The notes under the pieces: generated by a model
Told to the model about the DNA's origin: nothing
The model's database searches: none
What the model saw: the letters and a program-made list of their open reading frames with translations, nothing else
Shown here: one piece after another, positions 1 through 14,152 of the stretch
Numbering within the stretch: the stretch's first letter is position 1
Layout of the letters: each line of letters begins with the position of its first letter
NCBI GenBank assembly: GCA_903905505.1
Contig: CAIVGL010000004.1
Span: 1-64,000 of the forward strand
Direction: 5' to 3'
DNA length: 64,000 nucleotides
Origin: an uncultured Bacteroidia bacterium
Lineage (GTDB): Bacteria; Bacteroidota; Bacteroidia; Bacteroidales; Prolixibacteraceae
Translations under genes and position numbers: made by a program

Positions 1-429
1 GATGGGTTTCATCTTCGCGACGAAGAGATTATTGTCTTTTATAAAGCAAAAGGTCCAAATAGAACCATTATAACCTCCGATGTTACCCACTATGCCACCC
101 TGCCACCAGGAGAATATAAAAATGATGAGGGAGAAACAATTCAACTCACCAAAGAAGGAATGGTGCGCTTGGCTTCACAGAATGTACTCTACGGCTCGGC
201 ATCCCCATTATCACGAGGCGTTGCGCATATGATAAAAGTTACAGGCTGCTCCTTGGGAGAAGCCATCCAGATGGCGAGTACAAATCCAGCTAAATTATAT
301 GGATGGAAGGATCGCGGAGTTCTTGCCCCAGGCAAACGTGCCGACCTAATTCTATTCGAAGTTGGAGAAAATGACCTAACGATTAAAAAAACCTTTGTGG
401 CTGGAAAATTGGTTTACGAAGCTCAATAA
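1..429 (+). CDS. nagA: N-acetylglucosamine-6-phosphate deacetylase-like amidohydrolase, C-terminal part
   Basis: Open from base 1, so the N-terminus lies outside the window; the ATG at 160 in the ORF track is internal. The visible 142 residues begin DGFHL (the metal/substrate loop of NagA), then TSDVT..ATLPPGEY, the TSD Asp region and LPPG(E/R)Y loop of NagA, and end in the usual MASTNPAKLYG..DRGVLAPGKRADLILF tail of amidohydrolases. NagA removes acetate from GlcNAc-6-P in the cytoplasm. A nagB-like deaminase lies four genes downstream on the same strand, which supports an amino-sugar role. The exact substrate of this copy is inferred. Confidence 0.85.
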   Translation, partial: DGFHLRDEEIIVFYKAKGPNRTIITSDVTHYATLPPGEYKNDEGETIQLTKEGMVRLASQNVLYGSASPLSRGVAHMIKVTGCSLGEAIQMASTNPAKLYGWKDRGVLAPGKRADLILFEVGENDLTIKKTFVAGKLVYEAQ

Positions 430-3005: not shown

Positions 3006-4307
3006 ATGACAGAGCAAAAAAATACTGTTGGCACTTACCGCTATCGCATCTTAGCCTTAGTCTTTATGGCTACGACCATAAATTATTTCGATCGCAGCAT
3101 TATTGGGGTTATGGCGCCAACCTTGCAAAAGCTTTTCGATTGGTCGAATAAGGATTATGCCTTGATCATGGTCTCCTTCAAAGTGGCTTATGGCATTGGC
3201 TTATTGTTTATGGGGAGTATCATTGATCGTTTTGGGACCAAAACTGGTTATACCCTATCTATCGTGATCTGGAGCATTTTTGGAATGTTGCACGCTGCCA
3301 TTCGGCCAGCTTTTAGTCTTATTGGATTTATCACAGCCCGCTTCGGCCTAGGAATTGGGGAATCGGGTAATTTCCCCGCTGCCATCAAGACGGTAGCAGA
3401 ATGGTTTCCTAAACGGGATAGAGCATTTGCAAATGGCATTTTTGACGCCTCCACAAGTGTCGGAGCTATTTTAGCTCCATTTATTGTTGGAGCAATTGTA
3501 ACTGTAGAGGGTAAAAACTGGCAGATTCCCTTTCTATTCACTGGCGTTCTGAGTGCCATATGGATCTATCTCTGGATTAAGTACTATCAAAAACCGGAGG
3601 AGCACCCTCAACTATCGAAAGAGGAATTAAAGTATATAAATAGCGACTCATCCGAGGAAAGCTCAGAAGGAATTCCATGGCTAAAGCTTGTGCCAAAACG
3701 CGAAACCTGGGCATTTGCCTTAACAACAATTACGGATGGTGTTTGGTGGTTCTACCTCTTCTGGGGAGCTAAATTCTTAGCCGAACAGTTTGGGGTCGAC
3801 ATCAATAACATAGGTCCACCATTCTTGGTGATCTTCATCATGGCTGACATAGGATCGCTTCTGGGTGGCTATACCTCGGGTGCATTGATAAAAAAAGGGT
3901 GGTCCATTAACAAGGCGAGAAAAATTACCATGCTAATTTGCGCCATCATCATTTTACCCGTGGCCTTTGTCCCTGTCATAACAAGCAAATGGCTTGCGGT
4001 ATTCCTAATCGGTCTTGGAGCAGCAGGTCATCAATCATGGTCTATCAATGGCTATACCTTAGTGCCAGACGTGTTTCCAAAAAAAGCTGTTGCCTCCGTA
4101 ATCGGCATCGGTAAAATGGTGGGCGTTGTGGTAGCCGTAATTGCCGATCTCGCACTGGGAGCCGTATTAGACAAAGCTGGCAATACAGGCTATTTCTGGG
4201 CCTTTATCATTGCAGGACTCTCCTACCTAACTATTTTAGGTTTTGTCCACCTATTGATGCCTAAGATGACGCCGATGGACGATAATTTAGATTATATTAA
4301 AGCATAA
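3006..4307 (+). CDS. MFS transporter, anion:cation symporter (ACS/ExuT-like) family
   Basis: 433 aa with about 12 hydrophobic segments. The N-terminal INYFDRSIIGVMAPTLQ and the GIGESGNFPAAIKTVAEWFPKRDRA loop are signatures of the ACS branch of the major facilitator superfamily (hexuronate, galactonate and related acid transporters). It probably brings the product of the periplasmic enzymes across the inner membrane to the cytoplasmic NagA/NagB-like enzymes. It starts 49 bp after the oxidoreductase and ends 17 bp before the deaminase start, so it is part of the same transcript. An acidic or oxidised sugar substrate is an inference from family membership. Confidence 0.88.
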   Translation: MTEQKNTVGTYRYRILALVFMATTINYFDRSIIGVMAPTLQKLFDWSNKDYALIMVSFKVAYGIGLLFMGSIIDRFGTKTGYTLSIVIWSIFGMLHAAIRPAFSLIGFITARFGLGIGESGNFPAAIKTVAEWFPKRDRAFANGIFDASTSVGAILAPFIVGAIVTVEGKNWQIPFLFTGVLSAIWIYLWIKYYQKPEEHPQLSKEELKYINSDSSEESSEGIPWLKLVPKRETWAFALTTITDGVWWFYLFWGAKFLAEQFGVDINNIGPPFLVIFIMADIGSLLGGYTSGALIKKGWSINKARKITMLICAIIILPVAFVPVITSKWLAVFLIGLGAAGHQSWSINGYTLVPDVFPKKAVASVIGIGKMVGVVVAVIADLALGAVLDKAGNTGYFWAFIIAGLSYLTILGFVHLLMPKMTPMDDNLDYIKA

Positions 4308-4324
4308 AATAATTGATTCAACAG

Positions 4325-5059
4325 ATGGAGATAATCATCTCAGATACAAAACAAGAACTTGGTTTAAAAGCGGCCCAAGCTGGAGCCGCACGAATCCGTG
4401 AGGCTATCAAGGCGCGTGGAGAAGCGAATATCATTGTGGCAACTGGAGCATCACAATTCGAGATGTTACAGGAGCTCGTCAAAGAAGATATCAATTGGTC
4501 TGTCGTTACTGCTTTTCACCTCGATGAATACATTGGGATCAATGAGCAGCACCCCGCTTCATTCCGGAAATACCTAAAGGAACGATTTGCTGATTTGGTC
4601 CGACCAAAAGTATTTAACTATGTAAATGGTGATATTGATCCCCATCAAGAGTGTCAGCGATTAGGTAAGGTAATCCAATCTTCTCCTATTGATGTCGCTT
4701 TTGTAGGTATTGGGGAGAATGGCCACTTGGCGTTCAATGATCCCCCCGCTGATTTCCAAACAGAGGAAGCTTATCTTGTAGTTGAATTAAACGAGGCCTG
4801 TCGCAAACAGCAACTTGGCGAAGGCTGGTTTAAAACTCTTGAAGATGTACCACAACGTGCTATTAGCATGTCGATTAAGCAGATTTTAAAATCAAAATTT
4901 ATTGTTTGCAGTGTGCCAGACCAGCGAAAAGCGCAGGCGGTATTTGACACTGTAACTTGTGAAATTTCACCCCTTCATCCGGCTTCGATACTTCGAAACC
5001 ATCCCCATACGATGCTCTACCTAGATCATGAAGCTGCATCATTACTGAAGAATTCTTAA
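4325..5059 (+). CDS. nagB: Glucosamine-6-phosphate deaminase-like protein
   Basis: 244 aa from ATG 4325; the ORF-track start at 4313 is a TTG four codons earlier and has no better context. NagB family motifs: FHLDEYIGI (with the general-base Asp), [14 protein letters not shown] (active-site loop with the ring-opening His; the Glu usual in FNEP is Asp here) and a C-terminal HPASILRNH. NagB converts glucosamine-6-P to fructose-6-P and ammonia in the cytoplasm. Together with the nagA end at base 1 it makes an amino-sugar catabolic pair. The FNDPP variant occurs in NagB-like paralogues, so a modified amino-sugar phosphate is possible. Confidence 0.82.
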
Positions 5060-5086: not shown

Positions 5087-7342
5087 GTGAAAACAAATTT
5101 TTCTAGACTACTAACCTTCGGATTTTTTTCAATCTTAATTTGTGCCTTTGCACCTGTTCCTGAAAAAAAATCAAACCTTGATTATGTCGATCCTTATATT
5201 GGAGGAATGGGTCATCTCCTTCACCCAACTAGGCCAAATGTGCAATTGCCGAACCAGATGATTCGGATGCACCCCATGCGGGCTGACTTTCTAGATGATC
5301 AGATTAGCTCCTTTCCCTTATCGATGATCTCCCATCGGGCAGGCGAGCTTTTTGGCGTTCTTCCTGGTACAGGTAAACCCTATCCCGGCAAGTGGAAAGA
5401 GCGTCAGACGTACGATCATGATCTTGAGATTGTGCGACCTTACTTTTTCTCAACCTATCTGATTGATGAAGATATTAAAACGGAGTTTGCGCCAGGTAAT
5501 AAAGTAGGATTTTTCCGTTTTACCTTTCCATCCAAGAGCAATAAAACACTGCGATTCCAGATTAACCAGGAAGGTCATTGGGAGTTTTTAGCAAACAACA
5601 GCTTGGTTGGAGAAGAACAATTTTTTGGGATGAAAGCCTATGTTTATGGCGAATTTAATCAGAAAGGTTCCGCTCTACTTAAGAGTGAGCCGCGATTTAT
5701 CAAAAAAACGAATAAAACTCGGCAGGAACCAACAGCTTGGATTGAGTTCTCAAAAGATGAGTCGAAACCGGTCGAATTTAAATATGCGATCTCCTTTATC
5801 AGTGTTGAACAAGCAAAAGCAAATCTGAAAAATGAGTTGTCAAATTGGGATTTTGACGGACTAAAAAATAAGGGTGAGCAGGTATGGGCTGAAACCATGA
5901 ATCAAATTGAGGTTAAGGGTGCTACAGAAGCTCAGCGCCGAACTTTTTACACCTCGCTTTACCGCACCTACGAACGGATGGTAAACATAAACGAATATGG
6001 TCATTACTATAGTTCTTATGATAAGAAAGTTCATGCCACAGACCGTGATTTTTTCATCGACGACTGGGTCTGGGATACCTATCTAGCCAATCATCCTCTG
6101 CGCATGATGCTTCAGCCAAAGAAAGAATCAGATATGCTTAATTCATATACCCAGATGTATGAACAGTCAGGATGGATGCCTCAGTTTCCGCTTCTTCATA
6201 TCGATAACCCAGCGATGAATGGCTTCCATTCGACGATTGTATTTCTAGATGCGTATCGAAAAGGGATTAAGGGGTATAACGTAGAGAAAGCCTATGAAGG
6301 AATTCGAAAAAACGGTTACGAAGCGACCTTGCTACCCTGGAGAAATGGAATCAGATGTTCTTTAGACACTTTTTATCGGGAGAAAGGGTTCTACCCTGCC
6401 TTAACGCCTGGCGAAGTTGAGACCGTGAAAGAGGTAGACAGCTTTGAGAAGCGCCAGAGTGTCGCAATTACGCTTGGAGCTAGCTATGACGACTGGGCAC
6501 TTTCTGAAATGGCTAAAGAGCTAGGACATAAGAAAGACCAAGATTATTTCCACAAACAATCAACGAATTACCGCAATCTTTACCGTCCTGAAAAGACATT
6601 AATGTGGCCGAAGAATGCCAAAGGCGAATGGATTGAGATTGACCCAAAATTTGATGGTGGTCCTGGAGGACGTGATTATTACGATGAAAATAACGGATAT
6701 ACCTATCAATGGCAAGTTCAAGAAGATATCCATGGGCTGGTTAAGCTGATGGGTGGACGGGAGAAGTTCACCGCTAACCTCGATCAACTCTTTCGGGAAG
6801 ATCTTGGACGCTCAAAATTTCAGTTCTGGGCTAAATTTGCTGATGCTACAGGTATGGTAGGTCAATATTCGATGGGTAACGAACCAAGTTTTCATATCCC
6901 ATGGCTGTATAATTATGCAGGCGAACCATGGAAAGTACAAAAAAGAGTGCGGTTCTTACTTGACGTGTGGTTTCAAGATAATATTTTTGGAATCCCTGGG
7001 GATGAAGATGGTGGAGGAATGACCGCCTTTGTAGTCTTTGCTTCAATGGGTTTCTACCCTGTAACCCCCGGATTGCCAATCTATAATATTGGAAGTCCAG
7101 TCTTTGAAGAGGTTAAAATAAAACAAACCAACGGTAAAACGTTTACAATCAAAGCGCATAATTATGCAAAGGGGAATAAATACATTCAATCGGCAAAATT
7201 AAATGGACAACCCTTGAACAAGCCATGGTTCACCCATGCCGAGCTTTTAAATGGAGCAACGATCGAGTTAGAGATGGGAGCTTATCCAAATAAGAAATGG
7301 GGTGCTTCAGTTGATGCAGCTCCACCTTCATCAATTGAATAG
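5087..7342 (+). CDS. GH92-family glycoside hydrolase (alpha-mannosidase-like), exported
   Basis: 751 aa from a GTG start (atg-free gap after nagB; the signal peptide KTNFSRLLTFGFFSILICAFAP follows directly). The N-terminal DYVDPYIGGMGH matches the VDPFIGTGG opening of GH92, and the C-terminal half has GNEPSFHIPWLYNYAGEPW, GIPGDEDGGGMTAFVVFASMGFYP and YNIGSPVFE, the catalytic core of the family. GH92 enzymes are mostly calcium-dependent exo-alpha-mannosidases trimming N-glycans. The N-terminal domain departs from the consensus (LLHPTRPNVQLPNQM), so the glycone may differ. Length is normal for the family. It lies in the amino-sugar cluster, consistent with glycan breakdown in the periplasm. Confidence 0.85.
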   Translation: MKTNFSRLLTFGFFSILICAFAPVPEKKSNLDYVDPYIGGMGHLLHPTRPNVQLPNQMIRMHPMRADFLDDQISSFPLSMISHRAGELFGVLPGTGKPYPGKWKERQTYDHDLEIVRPYFFSTYLIDEDIKTEFAPGNKVGFFRFTFPSKSNKTLRFQINQEGHWEFLANNSLVGEEQFFGMKAYVYGEFNQKGSALLKSEPRFIKKTNKTRQEPTAWIEFSKDESKPVEFKYAISFISVEQAKANLKNELSNWDFDGLKNKGEQVWAETMNQIEVKGATEAQRRTFYTSLYRTYERMVNINEYGHYYSSYDKKVHATDRDFFIDDWVWDTYLANHPLRMMLQPKKESDMLNSYTQMYEQSGWMPQFPLLHIDNPAMNGFHSTIVFLDAYRKGIKGYNVEKAYEGIRKNGYEATLLPWRNGIRCSLDTFYREKGFYPALTPGEVETVKEVDSFEKRQSVAITLGASYDDWALSEMAKELGHKKDQDYFHKQSTNYRNLYRPEKTLMWPKNAKGEWIEIDPKFDGGPGGRDYYDENNGYTYQWQVQEDIHGLVKLMGGREKFTANLDQLFREDLGRSKFQFWAKFADATGMVGQYSMGNEPSFHIPWLYNYAGEPWKVQKRVRFLLDVWFQDNIFGIPGDEDGGGMTAFVVFASMGFYPVTPGLPIYNIGSPVFEEVKIKQTNGKTFTIKAHNYAKGNKYIQSAKLNGQPLNKPWFTHAELLNGATIELEMGAYPNKKWGASVDAAPPSSIE

Positions 7343-7371: not shown

Positions 7372-9159
7372 ATGAGAAATAACCGTAGAGATTTCCTAAA
7401 AAAAGGAGCCCTAACAGGTCTGATACTTTCAGGGGCTGGACTATCGAACACGCACCTTTTAGCTCACCAGAGTCATGAAGAGACGCTAAGGGATTGCCCA
7501 ATTTCTGCTGAATTATTTTATCAATCAATTCATTTTAATCCTGATGAAGCTCCAGGGGAACTCCCCTTGAATGCGATTAAAATATTTTATCGTATACTGC
7601 AAGAGAGAACCGGAATTGAGTTTAATAATCGATCTGAAAATAGCCTAACCATTCGTCTGGTTGAAAACCCTGGAAGTTTACCGGAAGAGGGATTTCGAAT
7701 AGATCGAATAACGGAGCACCTAATCACGATTACGGCGAGTAATGAGAATGGGATCTTATATGGATTAGGAAAATTATTGCATAACTCATCTAGCACCGAA
7801 AAAGGGTTTAAACCAGGAAAATGGGAAGGTCTCTCTGCCCCTGAGAAGAAACAACGGAATATCTATTTCGCCACCCACTTTAATAATTTTTACCACACTG
7901 CTCCAATTCAAAAAGTTGTCAATTACATTGAAGAGTTAGCATTCTGGGGTTACAACACCATTGAAGTGTGGTTCGACATGCATGGCTTTGAGGGGATCAA
8001 TGATCCCAAAGCTAAGAAGATGCTGGAAAGGCTTGCTTTAATTTTGCGTGCAGGCAAAGGTGCAGGGATGAAGGTCGCGATCTGTATGCTTGCGAATGAA
8101 GGATATAATTCGACGCCAATCCCCTTACGTGCGACCGAGCCCAAACAGATCAAATTAAGGGGACGATATGGAGTCGAAATTTGTCCTTCCAAGCCTGGAG
8201 GGACCGAATTAATCATGCAGCAGGCTGAAGAAGAATTTGATGCTTTTAAAAATCTTGGTGTAACATTAGACTTATTAATTCTTTGGCCCTATGATCAAGG
8301 AGGTTGCGGATGCGATCAATGTATTCCATGGGGATCTAATGGCTATTTAAACTTATCGCGCAAGATTAGCAACTTGGCACGTCGGAAGATTCCCGCCATA
8401 AAAATTGTGCTTTCGACCTGGCTCTTTGATTGTGTTGAAGACGAAGGAGAATGGAAAGGGCTAACCAAAACCTTCCAGAACGAGAAGCCATTTGTGGACT
8501 ATATCCAAGCAGATTCGCATGAAAAGTTCCCTAAGTATCTGAATCAGAATAGAGTCCCTGGAGGACTACCATTACTAAATTTCCCGGAAATTAGCATGTG
8601 GAACTCATGGCCATGGGGCGGCTTTGGGGCCAATCCGCTTCCACAAAGGTTTCAAATGTTATGGAATGAAGTTAAAGGAAGAGTCGCAGGTGGAGCACCC
8701 TATTCAGAAGGAATTTTCGAGGATCTGAATAAAGTGATCTACAGTCAATTTTATTGGACCGCAGATCGAAGTGCTGCAGACATACTCAAGGAGTATCTCT
8801 CCTTTGAATTTTCTCCTGCTGACCCAGAACTGATTATTGAAGCCATTGAAATTCTTGAAAAAAATCATGGACTACAAGCACATTCCCATGCTGGGAGTGG
8901 CACAATCATAAAGGTTCCAAAAAATGATTTTGGAGCTAAAAGAGCGTATGAGATCTTACAAACCGCGAATGATCAGCTTCCCGATCAGGTAAAAAGAGGA
9001 TGGCGATGGAGGATATTATTCCTACGTGCGATGTTTGACTATGAATTACGAGTTAGCCAAGGAGTTCAGACAGAAAAAATAAAGGGTGGATTCTTGGAGC
9101 TTACTGCTTTATATTATGCCGATCAAGCAGATCCATCAGTCCATCCACCCAGAGATTAA
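7372..9159 (+). CDS. Tat-exported glycosidase-like protein (hexosaminidase domain-2 fold plus TIM barrel)
   Basis: 595 aa. Starts NNRRDFLKKGALTGLILSGAG, a strong twin-arginine signal. Residues about 45-140 (IKIFYRILQERTGIEF...ENGILYGLGKLL) look like the alpha/beta domain found before the catalytic barrel in GH20 hexosaminidases and alpha-glucuronidases. A barrel-like part follows (YNTIEVWFDMHGFEG) with an unusual GGCGCDQC cluster near 310 that could bind a metal, as seen in some DUF4838-type proteins. I do not see a certain catalytic pair. Last gene of the cluster, followed by a bidirectional terminator. Function: probable exo-glycosidase or glycan-binding enzyme; substrate unknown. Confidence 0.6.
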   Translation: MRNNRRDFLKKGALTGLILSGAGLSNTHLLAHQSHEETLRDCPISAELFYQSIHFNPDEAPGELPLNAIKIFYRILQERTGIEFNNRSENSLTIRLVENPGSLPEEGFRIDRITEHLITITASNENGILYGLGKLLHNSSSTEKGFKPGKWEGLSAPEKKQRNIYFATHFNNFYHTAPIQKVVNYIEELAFWGYNTIEVWFDMHGFEGINDPKAKKMLERLALILRAGKGAGMKVAICMLANEGYNSTPIPLRATEPKQIKLRGRYGVEICPSKPGGTELIMQQAEEEFDAFKNLGVTLDLLILWPYDQGGCGCDQCIPWGSNGYLNLSRKISNLARRKIPAIKIVLSTWLFDCVEDEGEWKGLTKTFQNEKPFVDYIQADSHEKFPKYLNQNRVPGGLPLLNFPEISMWNSWPWGGFGANPLPQRFQMLWNEVKGRVAGGAPYSEGIFEDLNKVIYSQFYWTADRSAADILKEYLSFEFSPADPELIIEAIEILEKNHGLQAHSHAGSGTIIKVPKNDFGAKRAYEILQTANDQLPDQVKRGWRWRILFLRAMFDYELRVSQGVQTEKIKGGFLELTALYYADQADPSVHPPRD

Positions 9160-9232: not shown

Positions 9233-12200
9233 TTAATCCAATGTCTTAGCAACAGAAACCTGCTCGAATGCTTCAATGAAATCACCTTCTTGAAGATCGT
9301 TGTATCCTCTGATATTCAAACCGCATTCGTACCCTTTGGCAACCTCTTTAGCATCATCTTTAAATCGTTTTAAAGACTCAAGATCACCTGTATAGACTAC
9401 GATACCGTCTCTAATAAGACGAACTTTCGAGTTGCGGATAATTTTTCCATCACGAACAATACAACCTGCAATAGTTCCAACCTTAGTAATGCTAAAGACG
9501 TTAAGGATCTCTGCTGTTCCTTTGATCTCTTCTTTGATCTCAGGCGCTAACATTCCTTCCATTGCTGATTTAACTTCATTTATTGCATCGTAGATGATAG
9601 AATAAAGTCGAATATCAATCTCTTCCTTCTCGGCAAGTTTGCGTGCACTCATTGAAGGCCTCACTTGGAAACCAACGATAATCGCATTTGATGCTGAAGC
9701 AAGCATAATATCTGATTCGGTAATTTGTCCTACCGCTTTATGAATCACATTAACCTGAATTTCTCCAACCGATAGTTTGATTAACGCATCAGCCAAGGCT
9801 TCAATTGATCCGTCAACATCACCCTTGACAATAATATTTAACTCTTGGAAGTTGCCAATTGCAATTCGTCGTCCAATCTCATCGAGAGTAATATGTTTTT
9901 GTGTCCGAAGACCTTGTTCGCGTTGAAGTTGTTCACGTTTATTGGCAATCATACGGGCCTCGCGCTCGCCTTCCATCACGTTGAACTTATCACCTGCCTG
10001 TGGTGCTCCATTCAATCCTAAGATTAAAACAGGTTCCGCAGGCCCTACTTCTTCTACACGCTGATTTCGTTCGTTGAACATCGCCTTCACGTGACCAAAA
10101 TGAGGTCCTGCAAGGATAACATCTCCAACTTTAAGTGTTCCATTTTGAACAAGAATGGTGGCTACATAACCTCTACCCTTATCTAATGAAGACTCAATAA
10201 CAGAACCAACGGCACGTTTATTTGGATTTGCTTTTAGCTCTAACATATCAGCTTCAAGCAATACTTTTTCTAATAAATCTTTAACCCCTAATCCGCTCTT
10301 AGCCGATAAGTCTTGAGACTGGTATTTTCCACCCCAATCTTCAACTAAGAAATTCATTGTGGCAAGCTGCTGTTTAATTTTCTCTGCATCAGCGGCTGGC
10401 TTATCCACCTTATTTATAGCGAATATAATCGGAACACCAGCAGCAGTCGCATGGTTGATCGCCTCTTTTGTTTGCGGCATCACGTCGTCGTCAGCCGCAA
10501 CGATAATAATAACAATGTCAGTAACCTGAGCACCACGTGCACGCATCGCAGTAAACGCTTCGTGACCTGGTGTGTCCAAGAAGGTAATCTTACGACCATT
10601 CTCAAGGGTTACATTATAGGCCCCAATATGTTGTGTAATACCTCCTGCTTCACCCGCAATAACATTTGCCTTACGGATATAATCGAGTAATGAGGTTTTA
10701 CCATGATCGACGTGACCCATCACCGTAACAATAGGAGGTCGAGACATTAGATCATCTTCTAAATCCTGCTCTTCAACAATCGCTTCTTGAACTTCAACGG
10801 AAATAAATTCTACCTTAAAGCCAAATTCATCAGCCACAACAGCCATGGTCTCGGCATCAAGTCGTTGATTGATAGAAACGAAAAGACCTAGCGACATACA
10901 AGTCGCAATAATCTTCGTTGGAGGCACATCCATCATGGATGCTAACTCGTTAACAGAGACAAACTCTGTAACCTTGATAATACTTTTATCTATCTCATCC
11001 TGAGCGCTCTGCTCGGCTAATTTCTCACTAAATGCAACTCGTTTATCACGACGATATTTCGAACCTTTTGTCTTCTGACCTTTAGTGGTCAAACGAGCTA
11101 AAGTCTCTTTGATTTGTTTTTGTACATCCTCCTCTTTAACCTCTTGTTTAACAGGAGATTTTTTCTTGACAACCAAAGAGATTTTTTTCTTCAGCTTATC
11201 CGATTTCTCACCCTTATTCTCAAGAGTAGATTCAGGCTTTTTCTCTGCTGGTAAGTCAACACGTTCCTTTATCTCGTTTGGAACGCGTTTCCGTTTTTTC
11301 TTATTGCGAAGTTGATTCTCATCAACACGAATTGGTTTTTTCTTCTCTTCAACTGGAAGGTCTATTCTTCCGACTACCGTTGGCCCAGTTAATTTCTTGC
11401 GATCTAACTTAAATATCTCATCTTGGTTTTCTATTCCTTCAACAGCTGCATCATCTGCAAGGGCTGCTTTAGGTTGAACGACCTCGGCTTTTTCTGTACT
11501 ATCTTGTTCTTCAGACTTTTGGGCAACTTCCTTTGTCTTAACAATTTCTGTCGTAGGTTTTTCCGTCGTACGAGGAGGATTAAGATCAATCTTACCGACA
11601 ACCTTAACATTATTCTCGATCTGAGACTGATTAGACATCATCTCAGGCTTAGAAGCTTCCTTTATCTTAACGGTGTCAACAGGCTCTATTGATTCGGTTT
11701 GAACTTTCGATTTAGACTCTTTGGTCTCTGCTGGCACATCTGGTTTTTTCGGCGAAACAACTTCTGCAGTTGACGCTTTAACTTTCGGTTTTACACCAAG
11801 ATCAACCTTGCCAACAACGGTAATTTGTGGTCTCTCATCGCTTCCCGCGGCTGCGGCTGCAGATGGTTTAAAAATTTCTTGAGTCGGTGGTACTGAAGGA
11901 TTCGTATCGGAAGCTGGCTTAACAATGGTCTGGCCAGCATGTTTGTCGTCTTTATAATGGGGAAGACTATGGTCTTTTATTATAATTGAGTCATCATCGG
12001 CCTCAGCATCGTCGGCCTCTTTTTTTGAAGCAGGAACATCTGAAATTGAAACGGCCTCATTTTTAGCATAGTGATGACGAAGATTAAGCTTATCAGCTTC
12101 TGCCTTAGCTTCATGATCTTTTCGGAATTGCTTCTCGAGAAGTTCATGCATATCAGCTTCAATTTTTGTATTTGGATCACTCGAGATTTTATAGCCCTGT

Positions 12201-12289
12201 TTCTGCAGGAAATCTACTAATGTAGTGATTCCCACGTTCAGCTCACGTGCTATCTTACTCAATCTTGATCCTTTGTCCCCTGTAATCAT
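9233..12289 (-). CDS. infB: Translation initiation factor IF-2
   Basis: 1018 aa. IF2_N-type winged helix at 1-55 (RLSKIARELNVGITTLVDFLQKQG), a long charged linker to about 430, then a second IF2_N-like segment and the GTPase: GHVDHGKTS near 522 (G1), DTPGHE (G3), NKVD (G4), followed by EF-Tu-like and C2 domains that bind initiator tRNA. IF-2 places fMet-tRNA on the 30S subunit and promotes subunit joining. The linker carries three copies of a VVGK(I/V)DL/VVGRIDL phrase between Lys/Glu-rich stretches. Last gene of the rimP-nusA-infB operon, 61 bp after nusA. Confidence 0.98.
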   Translation of the reverse strand: MITGDKGSRLSKIARELNVGITTLVDFLQKQGYKISSDPNTKIEADMHELLEKQFRKDHEAKAEADKLNLRHHYAKNEAVSISDVPASKKEADDAEADDDSIIIKDHSLPHYKDDKHAGQTIVKPASDTNPSVPPTQEIFKPSAAAAAGSDERPQITVVGKVDLGVKPKVKASTAEVVSPKKPDVPAETKESKSKVQTESIEPVDTVKIKEASKPEMMSNQSQIENNVKVVGKIDLNPPRTTEKPTTEIVKTKEVAQKSEEQDSTEKAEVVQPKAALADDAAVEGIENQDEIFKLDRKKLTGPTVVGRIDLPVEEKKKPIRVDENQLRNKKKRKRVPNEIKERVDLPAEKKPESTLENKGEKSDKLKKKISLVVKKKSPVKQEVKEEDVQKQIKETLARLTTKGQKTKGSKYRRDKRVAFSEKLAEQSAQDEIDKSIIKVTEFVSVNELASMMDVPPTKIIATCMSLGLFVSINQRLDAETMAVVADEFGFKVEFISVEVQEAIVEEQDLEDDLMSRPPIVTVMGHVDHGKTSLLDYIRKANVIAGEAGGITQHIGAYNVTLENGRKITFLDTPGHEAFTAMRARGAQVTDIVIIIVAADDDVMPQTKEAINHATAAGVPIIFAINKVDKPAADAEKIKQQLATMNFLVEDWGGKYQSQDLSAKSGLGVKDLLEKVLLEADMLELKANPNKRAVGSVIESSLDKGRGYVATILVQNGTLKVGDVILAGPHFGHVKAMFNERNQRVEEVGPAEPVLILGLNGAPQAGDKFNVMEGEREARMIANKREQLQREQGLRTQKHITLDEIGRRIAIGNFQELNIIVKGDVDGSIEALADALIKLSVGEIQVNVIHKAVGQITESDIMLASASNAIIVGFQVRPSMSARKLAEKEEIDIRLYSIIYDAINEVKSAMEGMLAPEIKEEIKGTAEILNVFSITKVGTIAGCIVRDGKIIRNSKVRLIRDGIVVYTGDLESLKRFKDDAKEVAKGYECGLNIRGYNDLQEGDFIEAFEQVSVAKTLD

Positions 12290-12350
12290 ATCTTCCCAAA
12301 CAATTAATTATGCTATTTAGCTAAGCCAAGTTTAACGCTTTAAGCAAGAA

Positions 12351-13589
12351 TTATTCAAACTCTGCTTTAAATATGCGCAAGACTTCATCAATAGTCTCTT
12401 CTTCTAAATCAGTACGCTTAATAAGATCTTCACGCGATAAGCCCAAAACATTCTTCGCGGTATCACATCCAATCGCCTTTAATTCATCAATGATCCATCC
12501 TTCAATCTCATCAGAGAATTCATCAAGACTAACATCTTCTTCATCAACGGTATCGCGATCTCTGTAAACGTCAATATCGTAACCTGTAAGTTGACTAGCT
12601 AACTTAATATTAAGACCTCCCTTGCCAATCGCTAAAGAGACTTCTTCAGGCTTAAGAAAAACTTCTGCGCGATTTTCATTGGCAAAAAGTTTAATTGAAG
12701 AGATCTTAGCTGGGTTTAATGCCCGCTGGATATATAATTGTAAGTTGCTGGTATAATTGATGATGTCAATATTTTCATTGCGCAATTCACGAACGATGCC
12801 ATGAATACGTGAACCTTTCATCCCAACGCAAGCACCAACTGGATCCACACGCTCATCGTATGATTCCACGGCCACTTTTGCTCTTTCACCTGGTATGCGC
12901 ACAATATTTTTAATGGTTATCAAACCATCGAAGATCTCAGGAACCTCAAGTTCAAACAGACGCTCAAGGAAAACTGAAGATGTTCGAGACAAGATGATGT
13001 ATGGACTATTATTTCTCATCTCAACCCGAATAATAACTGCCCTAACGGCATCTCCTTTACGGAAAAAGTCGGTAGGAATCTGCTCAACTTTAGGAAGCAA
13101 AAGTTCATTGCCCTCATCGTCAAGTAGAAGCAATTCACGTTTCCAGATCTGATAAACTTCTCCGGTAACGATCTCGCCAATCTTATTTTTATATTTTGTA
13201 TAAACGTTGTCCTTCTCTAGTTCAAGAATACGAGTTGCCAAATTCTGTCTTAAATTCAGAATTGCTCTTCTGCCAAAGTCTGAAAATTTCACCTCATCGG
13301 TTACCTCTTCTCCGACTTCATAATCATCGCCAATCTTTTTAGCTTGTTCAAGCGTAATTTGAAGGTTGGCATCGGTAAATTCATCATCTGCGACAACTGT
13401 TCTATTGCGCCAAATTTCAAAATCACCCTTGTCAGGATTAATGATCACGTCGAAATTCTCGTCTGTACCAAACTGTTTTTGAAGAACACTACGGAAAGAA
13501 TCTTCAAGCACACTCATCATGGTGGCTCTGTCGATACTTTTAAGATCTTTAAATTCCGAAAACGTGTCAATCAAGTTCAGGTTATCCAT
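12351..13589 (-). CDS. nusA: Transcription termination/antitermination factor NusA
   Basis: 412 aa. The N-terminal RNA-polymerase-binding domain begins MDNLNLIDTFSEFKDLKSIDRATMMSVLEDSF. An S1 domain follows (about 130-200, KIGEIVTGEVYQIWKREL), then two KH domains with GMKG and GKGG loops (VGACVGMKGSRIHGIVREL, AIGKGGLNIKLASQ). The acidic C-terminal repeats of the E. coli protein are replaced by one short helix-hairpin-helix-like region, the common short form outside Gammaproteobacteria. It binds RNA polymerase and nascent RNA to control pausing and termination. 15 bp downstream of rimP in the same operon. Confidence 0.97.
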   Translation of the reverse strand: MDNLNLIDTFSEFKDLKSIDRATMMSVLEDSFRSVLQKQFGTDENFDVIINPDKGDFEIWRNRTVVADDEFTDANLQITLEQAKKIGDDYEVGEEVTDEVKFSDFGRRAILNLRQNLATRILELEKDNVYTKYKNKIGEIVTGEVYQIWKRELLLLDDEGNELLLPKVEQIPTDFFRKGDAVRAVIIRVEMRNNSPYIILSRTSSVFLERLFELEVPEIFDGLITIKNIVRIPGERAKVAVESYDERVDPVGACVGMKGSRIHGIVRELRNENIDIINYTSNLQLYIQRALNPAKISSIKLFANENRAEVFLKPEEVSLAIGKGGLNIKLASQLTGYDIDVYRDRDTVDEEDVSLDEFSDEIEGWIIDELKAIGCDTAKNVLGLSREDLIKRTDLEEETIDEVLRIFKAEFE

Positions 13590-13604
13590 ATCTTCAGGAT
13601 TTTA

Positions 13605-14060
13605 TTAAAAAGAAATTACTATTTTAACTGTCTTAATTTGATCAAAAGAATACGCTAACGCCTTAGTTACAATAACTTTTTTGCCGTCAACCTTCTCTTT
13701 TGTTGCTACTTCTAATTCAAAACCTGCCTCGTCAGCCGATTTTAATACGCCCGTTACCTTTTCTCCGCCATTTGTCACCACCTCAACTTCACGACCGATA
13801 TTTTTGAGGTATTGACGAACCACCTTAAAAGGTAAAGAGAGTCCTGGTGATGATACTTCTAAGGAAAAATCATCCGATTCACGATCTAGGCTCCCTTCGA
13901 TATGACGTGATATTGTCACACATTCGCCCACACTTACTCCAACATTACTATCAACGTATACAGAAATTGCATTCGCTGAACTCACAGTAACCTCTACAAT
14001 AAACAGATCCTCTGACATTGCTTCCAACGCAAGAGACTGAACCTTTTCTTTAGTTATCAT
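13605..14060 (-). CDS. rimP: Ribosome maturation factor RimP
   Basis: 151 aa from ATG 14060 (MITKEKVQSLALEAM). The ORF-track start at 14123 would place the first 21 codons across the leader hairpin and almost onto the promoter, and those residues do not look like RimP. Family features: EVTVSSANAISVYVDSNVGVSVGECVTISRHIE and FSLEVSSPGLSLPFKVVRQY, with the conserved V(S/D)SPGL core, then the C-terminal SH3-like domain. RimP binds free 30S subunits and helps their maturation. First gene of rimP-nusA-infB, a gene order conserved in most bacteria. Confidence 0.95.
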   Translation of the reverse strand: MITKEKVQSLALEAMSEDLFIVEVTVSSANAISVYVDSNVGVSVGECVTISRHIEGSLDRESDDFSLEVSSPGLSLPFKVVRQYLKNIGREVEVVTNGGEKVTGVLKSADEAGFELEVATKEKVDGKKVIVTKALAYSFDQIKTVKIVISF

Positions 14061-14077
14061 TTTTACTATCAATAAAA

Positions 14078-14098
14078 TAGGGGACCTTCCGTCCCCTA
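14078..14098 (-). promoter_or_regulatory. Leader hairpin in the rimP-nusA-infB 5' UTR
   Basis: Perfect 8-bp stem TAGGGGAC/GTCCCCTA around a 5-nt loop, 17 nt before the rimP ATG and about 20 nt after the predicted transcription start. On the minus strand it is followed by TTTTATTG, which makes it terminator-like though with a short U run. It could be an attenuator, an mRNA-stability element or an autoregulation site. Confidence 0.65.
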
Positions 14099-14120
14099 AT
14101 CCTTCGATTATTCTCCGCAA

Positions 14121-14152
14121 CAAAAGTAAACATTTTGTGTGGAAAAAACAAA
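14121..14152 (-). promoter_or_regulatory. Promoter of the rimP-nusA-infB operon
   Basis: Read on the minus strand: TTTG, 20 nt, TACTTTTG, which fits the Bacteroidota consensus TTTG-N19/20-TAnnTTTG. The predicted start of transcription is near 14114, about 54 nt before the rimP ATG at 14060. Confidence 0.75.

Follow-up and report, generated by a model that had tools for sequence, protein, structure and literature searches.

A putative exported glycoside hydrolase with a conserved four-cysteine cluster, from a multi-phylum family that Pfam and NCBIfam do not name

What kind of protein is encoded at positions 7372–9159 (+) of the 64,000-nucleotide stretch of DNA analyzed here (the window), and what is the role of the cysteines in its barrel? 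The segment is an intact open reading frame with a translation of 595 residues, of which residues 305–321 read WPYDQGGCGCDQCIPWG and include a GCGCDQC cluster; it encodes a putative exported TIM-barrel glycoside hydrolase (GH) with at least 80 full-length relatives. An earlier note on this DNA had pointed out the cluster together with a Tat-type leader, and both are present in the translation. The leader, recognized by eye as NNRRDFLKK followed by a hydrophobic stretch, scores 13.8 bits against the TIGR01409 cut-off of 16.7 and falls within a low-confidence N-terminus (residues 1–36; 7372–7479, +; pLDDT <50). The RRxF pattern occurs in only 16 of 84 members, so that a Tat leader is no family trait. 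Because most relatives have no such leader, it says little about a bound metal, and the note's use of it as a pointer to one proved uninformative.

Searches with the 595-residue protein returned no Pfam or NCBIfam model above its cut-off. The nearest Pfam models were the N-terminal domains of GH20 (PF02838, 18.8 bits; cut-off 26.1) and GH67 (PF03648, 13.7 bits; cut-off 24.3), in keeping with a GH20b/GH67N-like alpha/beta domain at about residues 50–155 (7519–7836, +) that also resembles GH20 N-domains in the PDB. Across the family, PF02838 is matched by 58 of 80 members and PF03648 by 38 of 80 (E ≤ 1; best values 1e-5 and 2e-6, respectively), and a profile search of PDB sequences reached GH20 enzymes at E 9e-5, with coverage limited to the N-domain and the first strands of the barrel. 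An AlphaFold2 model built from an 80-sequence alignment (mean pLDDT 90.2, pTM 0.90) combines this GH20b-like domain with a TIM barrel (7852–8709, +; pLDDT mostly >90) and a helical C-terminus at about residues 468–595 (8773–9156, +), in which the alignment shows an invariant E496 and R545. The modeled barrel strands span residues 161–166, 196–200, 234–240, 301–305, 344–348, 377–381, 401–404, and about 440–446. Among the 50 matches listed by Foldseek against the PDB, all are glycoside hydrolases of families GH67, GH138, GH84, GH115, or GH20, with GH67 alpha-glucuronidases at the top, but with E values (6e-15 to 4e-13) that are nearly equal between families. The hexosaminidase-type fold that the earlier note proposed is thus borne out by the Pfam N-domain matches, AlphaFold2, and Foldseek. 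As judged from the model, the fold group is clear, while the family within it is not: fold similarity is equal across the five families, and therefore no known family claims the protein.

Sequence comparison points in the same direction. The protein shares overall architecture and fold with GH67, GH115, GH138, GH84, and GH20 (TM about 0.5), but identity is 10–15%, no Pfam catalytic domain is matched, and the catalytic pairs of GH20 and GH84 have no counterpart. Specifically, the window protein yields no match to the catalytic domains of GH20 (PF00728, E ≤ 1) or GH67 (PF07488), nor to PF07555 of GH84, where it carries D308-Q309 instead of an Asp-Asp pair. Profile comparison of the catalytic part with hhalign gave P-values of 0.002 for DUF4838, 0.015 for GH20, 0.05 for GH67, 0.075 for GH84, and 0.37 for GH42, and global mode produced no useful alignment. 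These values are weak or non-significant, and at this level the barrel is not firmly linked to any known GH. A PDB sequence search found no clear relative; the weak match to 4n0r was discarded as non-significant, its aligned stretch lacking the cysteines. The earlier note had anticipated this lack of a match to a characterized GH family, and with Pfam, NCBIfam, and PDB searches negative and the Foldseek families equally close, we agree. Our literature searches found no paper on the family, and PDB sequence searches no solved structure of any member. Throughout, "unnamed" and "new" are meant with respect to Pfam and NCBIfam models and the PDB.

Relatives were gathered from related genomes and from a set of some 85,000 species genomes; the search yielded 249 stretches, and the top 80 of these were read. 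They derive from Bacteroidota, Planctomycetota, Verrucomicrobiota, Armatimonadota, Lentisphaerota, Kiritimatiellota, Hydrogenedentota, Acidobacteriota, and Chloroflexota, and from further single bins of other phyla, one of them labeled archaeal, although bins can contain contigs of foreign origin. The family is coherent and reaches roughly a dozen phyla; of 294 genomes sampled evenly from the phylum of locus L060 (Planctomycetaceae), seven contain a high-scoring member. The genome scan relied on the peptides WPYD[QE]GGC and [LV]NFPEISM, a choice that could bias the set toward the cysteines and E406. When members were instead identified by profile, with no peptide choice, they retained the four cysteines, D308, and E446, and carried Glu, occasionally Asp, at position 406. 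This set comprises L010, L019, and 14 high-scoring loci, among which L183–L188 re-find six peptide-scan genomes and the remainder are new; the cysteine cluster is kept in all 14. Two or three family copies per locus were seen in L098 (1–9515), L083, and L081.

The conserved cysteines number four, not three. In the AlphaFold2 model, C271 (8182–8184, +; Cys in 84 of 87 members) lies in the loop that connects strand 3 to helix 3, and the C312-x-C314-xx-C317 cluster (8305–8322, +; 87/87, 86/87, and 87/87) in the next loop. By alignment, conservation of the cluster is far beyond chance. Among distant relatives the four cysteines mostly either occur as a set, as in L201, L202, L208, L209, L190, L204, and L194, or are missing as a set, as in L191, L193, and L012, which have neither CxCxxC nor C271. 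Exceptions are a clade of three Bacteroidota (L056, L073, L103) that lacks C271 only, L097, in which only C314 is replaced (by Ser), and the distant relatives L203 and L210, which lack C314. L056, L073, L103, and L097 constitute natural tests of metal binding at an incomplete site.

The earlier note regarded a CxCxxC cluster as unusual for a glycosidase barrel, a view that does not hold: the motif is present in 25 of 25 DUF4838 (PF16126) proteins, and together with a fourth cysteine it makes up a published zinc site of GH42 enzymes. DUF4838, which we take to be linked to CAZy family GH163, likewise has a GH20b-like N-domain, a barrel, and a Cys followed by CxCxxC after an Asp; the upstream Cys lies at −38/−39 in the 12 sequences inspected for it and the Asp 5–6 residues before the cluster. 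A weak profile alignment sets C271 and the cluster in register with DUF4838. The two differ in that DUF4838 has an ND motif with CxCxxC 5–6 residues on, whereas the window protein has PYDxGGCxCxxC; the latter does not match PF16126 at E ≤ 1, and 3 of 80 members match weakly.

In the GH42 enzyme Gal42, modeled on 3TTS, the zinc ligands are Cys113, Cys153, Cys155, and Cys158, with Glu148 as acid/base and Glu305 as nucleophile (PMC8573354). The zinc of the 3TTS enzyme is structural rather than catalytic, according to work cited there (PMC8573354). The layout is closely similar: in the window protein C271 lies 41 residues, and the Asp four residues, before CxCxxC, compared with 40 and five in GH42, and in both a strand-4 acid stands 4–5 residues before the cluster, with a second catalytic Glu, putative in the window protein, later in the barrel. 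The window protein differs in having Asp where GH42 has Glu, and PYDQ in place of the NE motif. It does not match PF02449, and the profile comparison, at a non-significant P of 0.37, does not establish shared ancestry with GH42. A neighboring DUF4838 protein displays the same cysteine pattern against 3TTS in a phmmer alignment that is itself non-significant (E 0.6). The four-cysteine zinc site occurs in part of GH42 only, and because no cluster is present in the GH42 proteins retrieved from the taxonomic family to which the window belongs, the comparison rests on published enzymes.

Since DUF4838 proteins and the published GH42 site share this cysteine layout, C271, C312, C314, and C317 most likely form a structural zinc site. 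A rather less probable reading, independent of the catalytic ones below, is that they form two disulfides: the protein is exported, and for the most part the cysteines are retained or lost as a set. Against this, the spacing reproduces the GH42 zinc site, and the loss of C271 alone in L056, L073, and L103 and of C314 alone in L097 leaves an odd number of cysteines.

Which residues might carry out catalysis? Seven positions are invariant in 87 of 87 sequences (D308, C312, C317, Y444, E446, D451, and E496), and C314 and E406 each have a single exception. D308, the predicted general acid (8293–8295, +), follows strand 4 at its tip; E406, the predicted nucleophile or base (8587–8589, +; Glu in 86 of 87 sequences, Asp in one), lies after strand 7; and strand 8 carries E446, which forms an acidic patch with E450 and D451 (8707–8724, +), E450 being kept in 83 of 87. 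Position 381, at the end of strand 6, is Asp in 77 and Glu in 10 of the 87. As far as secondary structure in the model indicates, D308, D381, E406, and E446 would come together at the catalytic mouth of the barrel. Among more distant relatives, most retain D308, and Asp or Glu predominates at positions 406 and 446. On this conservation we predict D308, E406, and E446 to be the catalytic candidates. The earlier note saw no obvious catalytic pair; it was right that the paired Asp-Glu of GH20 is absent, D308 being followed by Gln, but the near-invariant candidates exist and were invisible from one sequence.

Position 309 is Gln in 50, Glu in 36, and Ser in one sequence of the family alignment; in the 80 rows of alignment A2 it is Gln in 46 and Glu in 34, and a single switch on the tree accounts for the difference. 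Were residue 309 the acid, proteins of the Q309 branch would be inactive and free to drift at their remaining predicted active-site residues; these are conserved in both branches, and residue 309 therefore appears to be non-essential. The Gln/Glu difference splits the tree into two subfamilies, which may differ in substrate.

Clues to the substrate come from the locus. Immediately upstream lies a GH92 alpha-mannosidase gene (5087–7342, +; PF07971 506 bits, TIGR01180 632 bits), which adjoins the 595-residue gene in 8 of 8 close relatives. It is preceded by genes for a NagB-like glucosamine-6-phosphate deaminase/isomerase (4313–5059, +; PF01182 59.9 bits; TIGR00502 138.7 bits, cut-off 236.9), an MFS transporter of sugar-acid type (3006–4307, +; PF07690; TIGR00893 223.9 bits, below cut-off), and a xylose-isomerase-like TIM-barrel protein plus a Gfo/Idh dehydrogenase (540–2956, +; Pfam/NCBIfam). 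At the contig end, positions 1–429 (+) encode the C-terminal part of a NagA-like deacetylase, one residue different from the tail of the NagA-like frame in L031; an intact relative in L238 scores 218.0 with TIGR00221 (cut-off 225.65). Contig C16 of the same genome also ends inside a NagA-like gene. C16 and the relatives give the order BNR protein, YdjC, HGSNAT/NagX-like, Gfo/Idh, RraA-like, HpcH aldolase, DUF4838, NagA-like, isomerase-like, Gfo/Idh, MFS, NagB-like, GH92, and then the 595-residue gene, with some variation between kin genomes. In the home locus, the NagA-, NagB-, and NagX-like proteins do not reach their equivalog cut-offs; in L096, a distant Planctomycetota member (about 40% identical), the gene is near a NagA above its cut-off. 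Outside the close clade we found no conserved operon, and the neighbors are varied carbohydrate genes (GH78, GH29, GH123, sulfatase, esterases). The locus supports an amino-sugar glycan as substrate in the close clade and informs little on other clades, whose substrate may differ because their gene context is mixed.

Several further features of these neighborhoods were recorded. A protein resembling neutral ceramidases (PF04734, in most cases a weak or partial match) is encoded near the gene in L050, L076, L087, L093, and L096, from several phyla. In L238 (2106–6455), beta-propeller/FG-GAP repeats, a GH123-like segment, and a YdjC domain are joined in one frame of 1450 residues, which adjoins a separate YdjC gene. 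Just downstream in the window, 9233–14123 (−) holds a housekeeping block of IF-2, NusA, and RimP, as read by eye from the translations.

Taken together, we give a probability of roughly 0.5 to the reading that the protein belongs to an unnamed family of the GH20/GH67/GH84 structural group and is an exported, probably exo-acting glycoside hydrolase with a D308/E406 site, a structural zinc, and an amino-sugar glycan as substrate. It would be exported via Tat in this lineage and have its active site where the barrel opens at its C-terminal end; there D308 would act as general acid and E406 as nucleophile or base, assisted by E446. One structural zinc on the four cysteines would clip the strand-3 and strand-4 loops together beside D308, as in GH42, without taking part in the chemistry. 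The substrate would be a glycan containing GlcNAc and mannose, possibly N-glycan-like, from which the adjacent GH92 enzyme may trim mannose while the NagA- and NagB-like enzymes would be supplied with its GlcNAc.

The best-surviving alternative, although unlikely, is a GH67-like inverting glycosidase, possibly acting on an acidic sugar, in which D308 would be the acid and D381 and E406 the base pair. GH67 enzymes combine a strand-4 Glu with a later Asp/Glu pair, and in the model, as judged from secondary structure, D308, D381, and E406 occupy comparable strand ends. The leading Foldseek matches, the acidic residue at position 381 in all 87 members, and the sugar-acid-type transporter and HpcH/RraA-type aldolases of the locus fit this reading. 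However, sequence alignment with GH67 covers the N-domain only, position 381 is non-acidic in several distant relatives, and the NagA/NagB/NagX-like genes point to amino sugars. We consider it quite improbable that the protein is a non-hydrolytic glycan binder or another sugar-modifying protein, such as a lyase that acts once Gfo/Idh enzymes have carried out a 3-oxidation. No known catalytic set is matched, and one of the Gfo/Idh dehydrogenases in the locus resembles a glycoside 3-dehydrogenase model (below cut-off), but several strand-end carboxylates that stay invariant across roughly a dozen phyla mark an active site rather than a lectin. Of the two options in the earlier note, a new GH sub-family or a binding protein, a new GH family stands, since no characterized family is matched, and a mere binder is disfavored by the near-invariant candidates. 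Least probable is a hexosaminidase that uses the substrate-assisted mechanism of GH20/GH84, its pair being D308 and residue 309, for although the N-domain is GH20b-like, the fold group includes GH20 and GH84, and 34 of 80 members have Asp-Glu at 308–309, residue 309 is Gln in the other 46, the window protein included, and its single change on the tree with the other site residues kept makes the second carboxylate look dispensable.

With conserved catalytic candidates in about a dozen phyla and neither a Pfam nor an NCBIfam model, these proteins might become the basis of a new CAZy family. That its D308/E406 set, possibly with E446, is unlike those of characterized members of the fold group, and is combined with the zinc clip of GH42 and DUF4838 in a new multi-phylum GH family, is a tentative and somewhat doubtful proposal. 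The four-cysteine layout beside the strand-4 acid, common to three barely alignable barrel families, hints at kinship or convergence; a zinc clip shared by this family, GH42, and DUF4838 would, if true, suggest an old link between clan-A-like and hexosaminidase-like barrels.

The family also has longer relatives of about 800–890 residues in the same genus (L012, L027, L029), with full-length profile homology (E 2e-36 and 1e-20). These keep D308 and mostly Asp or Glu at 406 and 446 (Ser at 446 in L029), but they differ in having an extra C-terminal region, and the group of about 800 residues has none of the four cysteines. Further paralogues, with at most a weak GH67N N-domain in Pfam among those checked, lie on the window's contig outside the window: a tandem of distant paralogues of about 790 residues, and one of about 814 residues near two DUF4838 genes (G000:C4:85856–88661 and 138113–145151).
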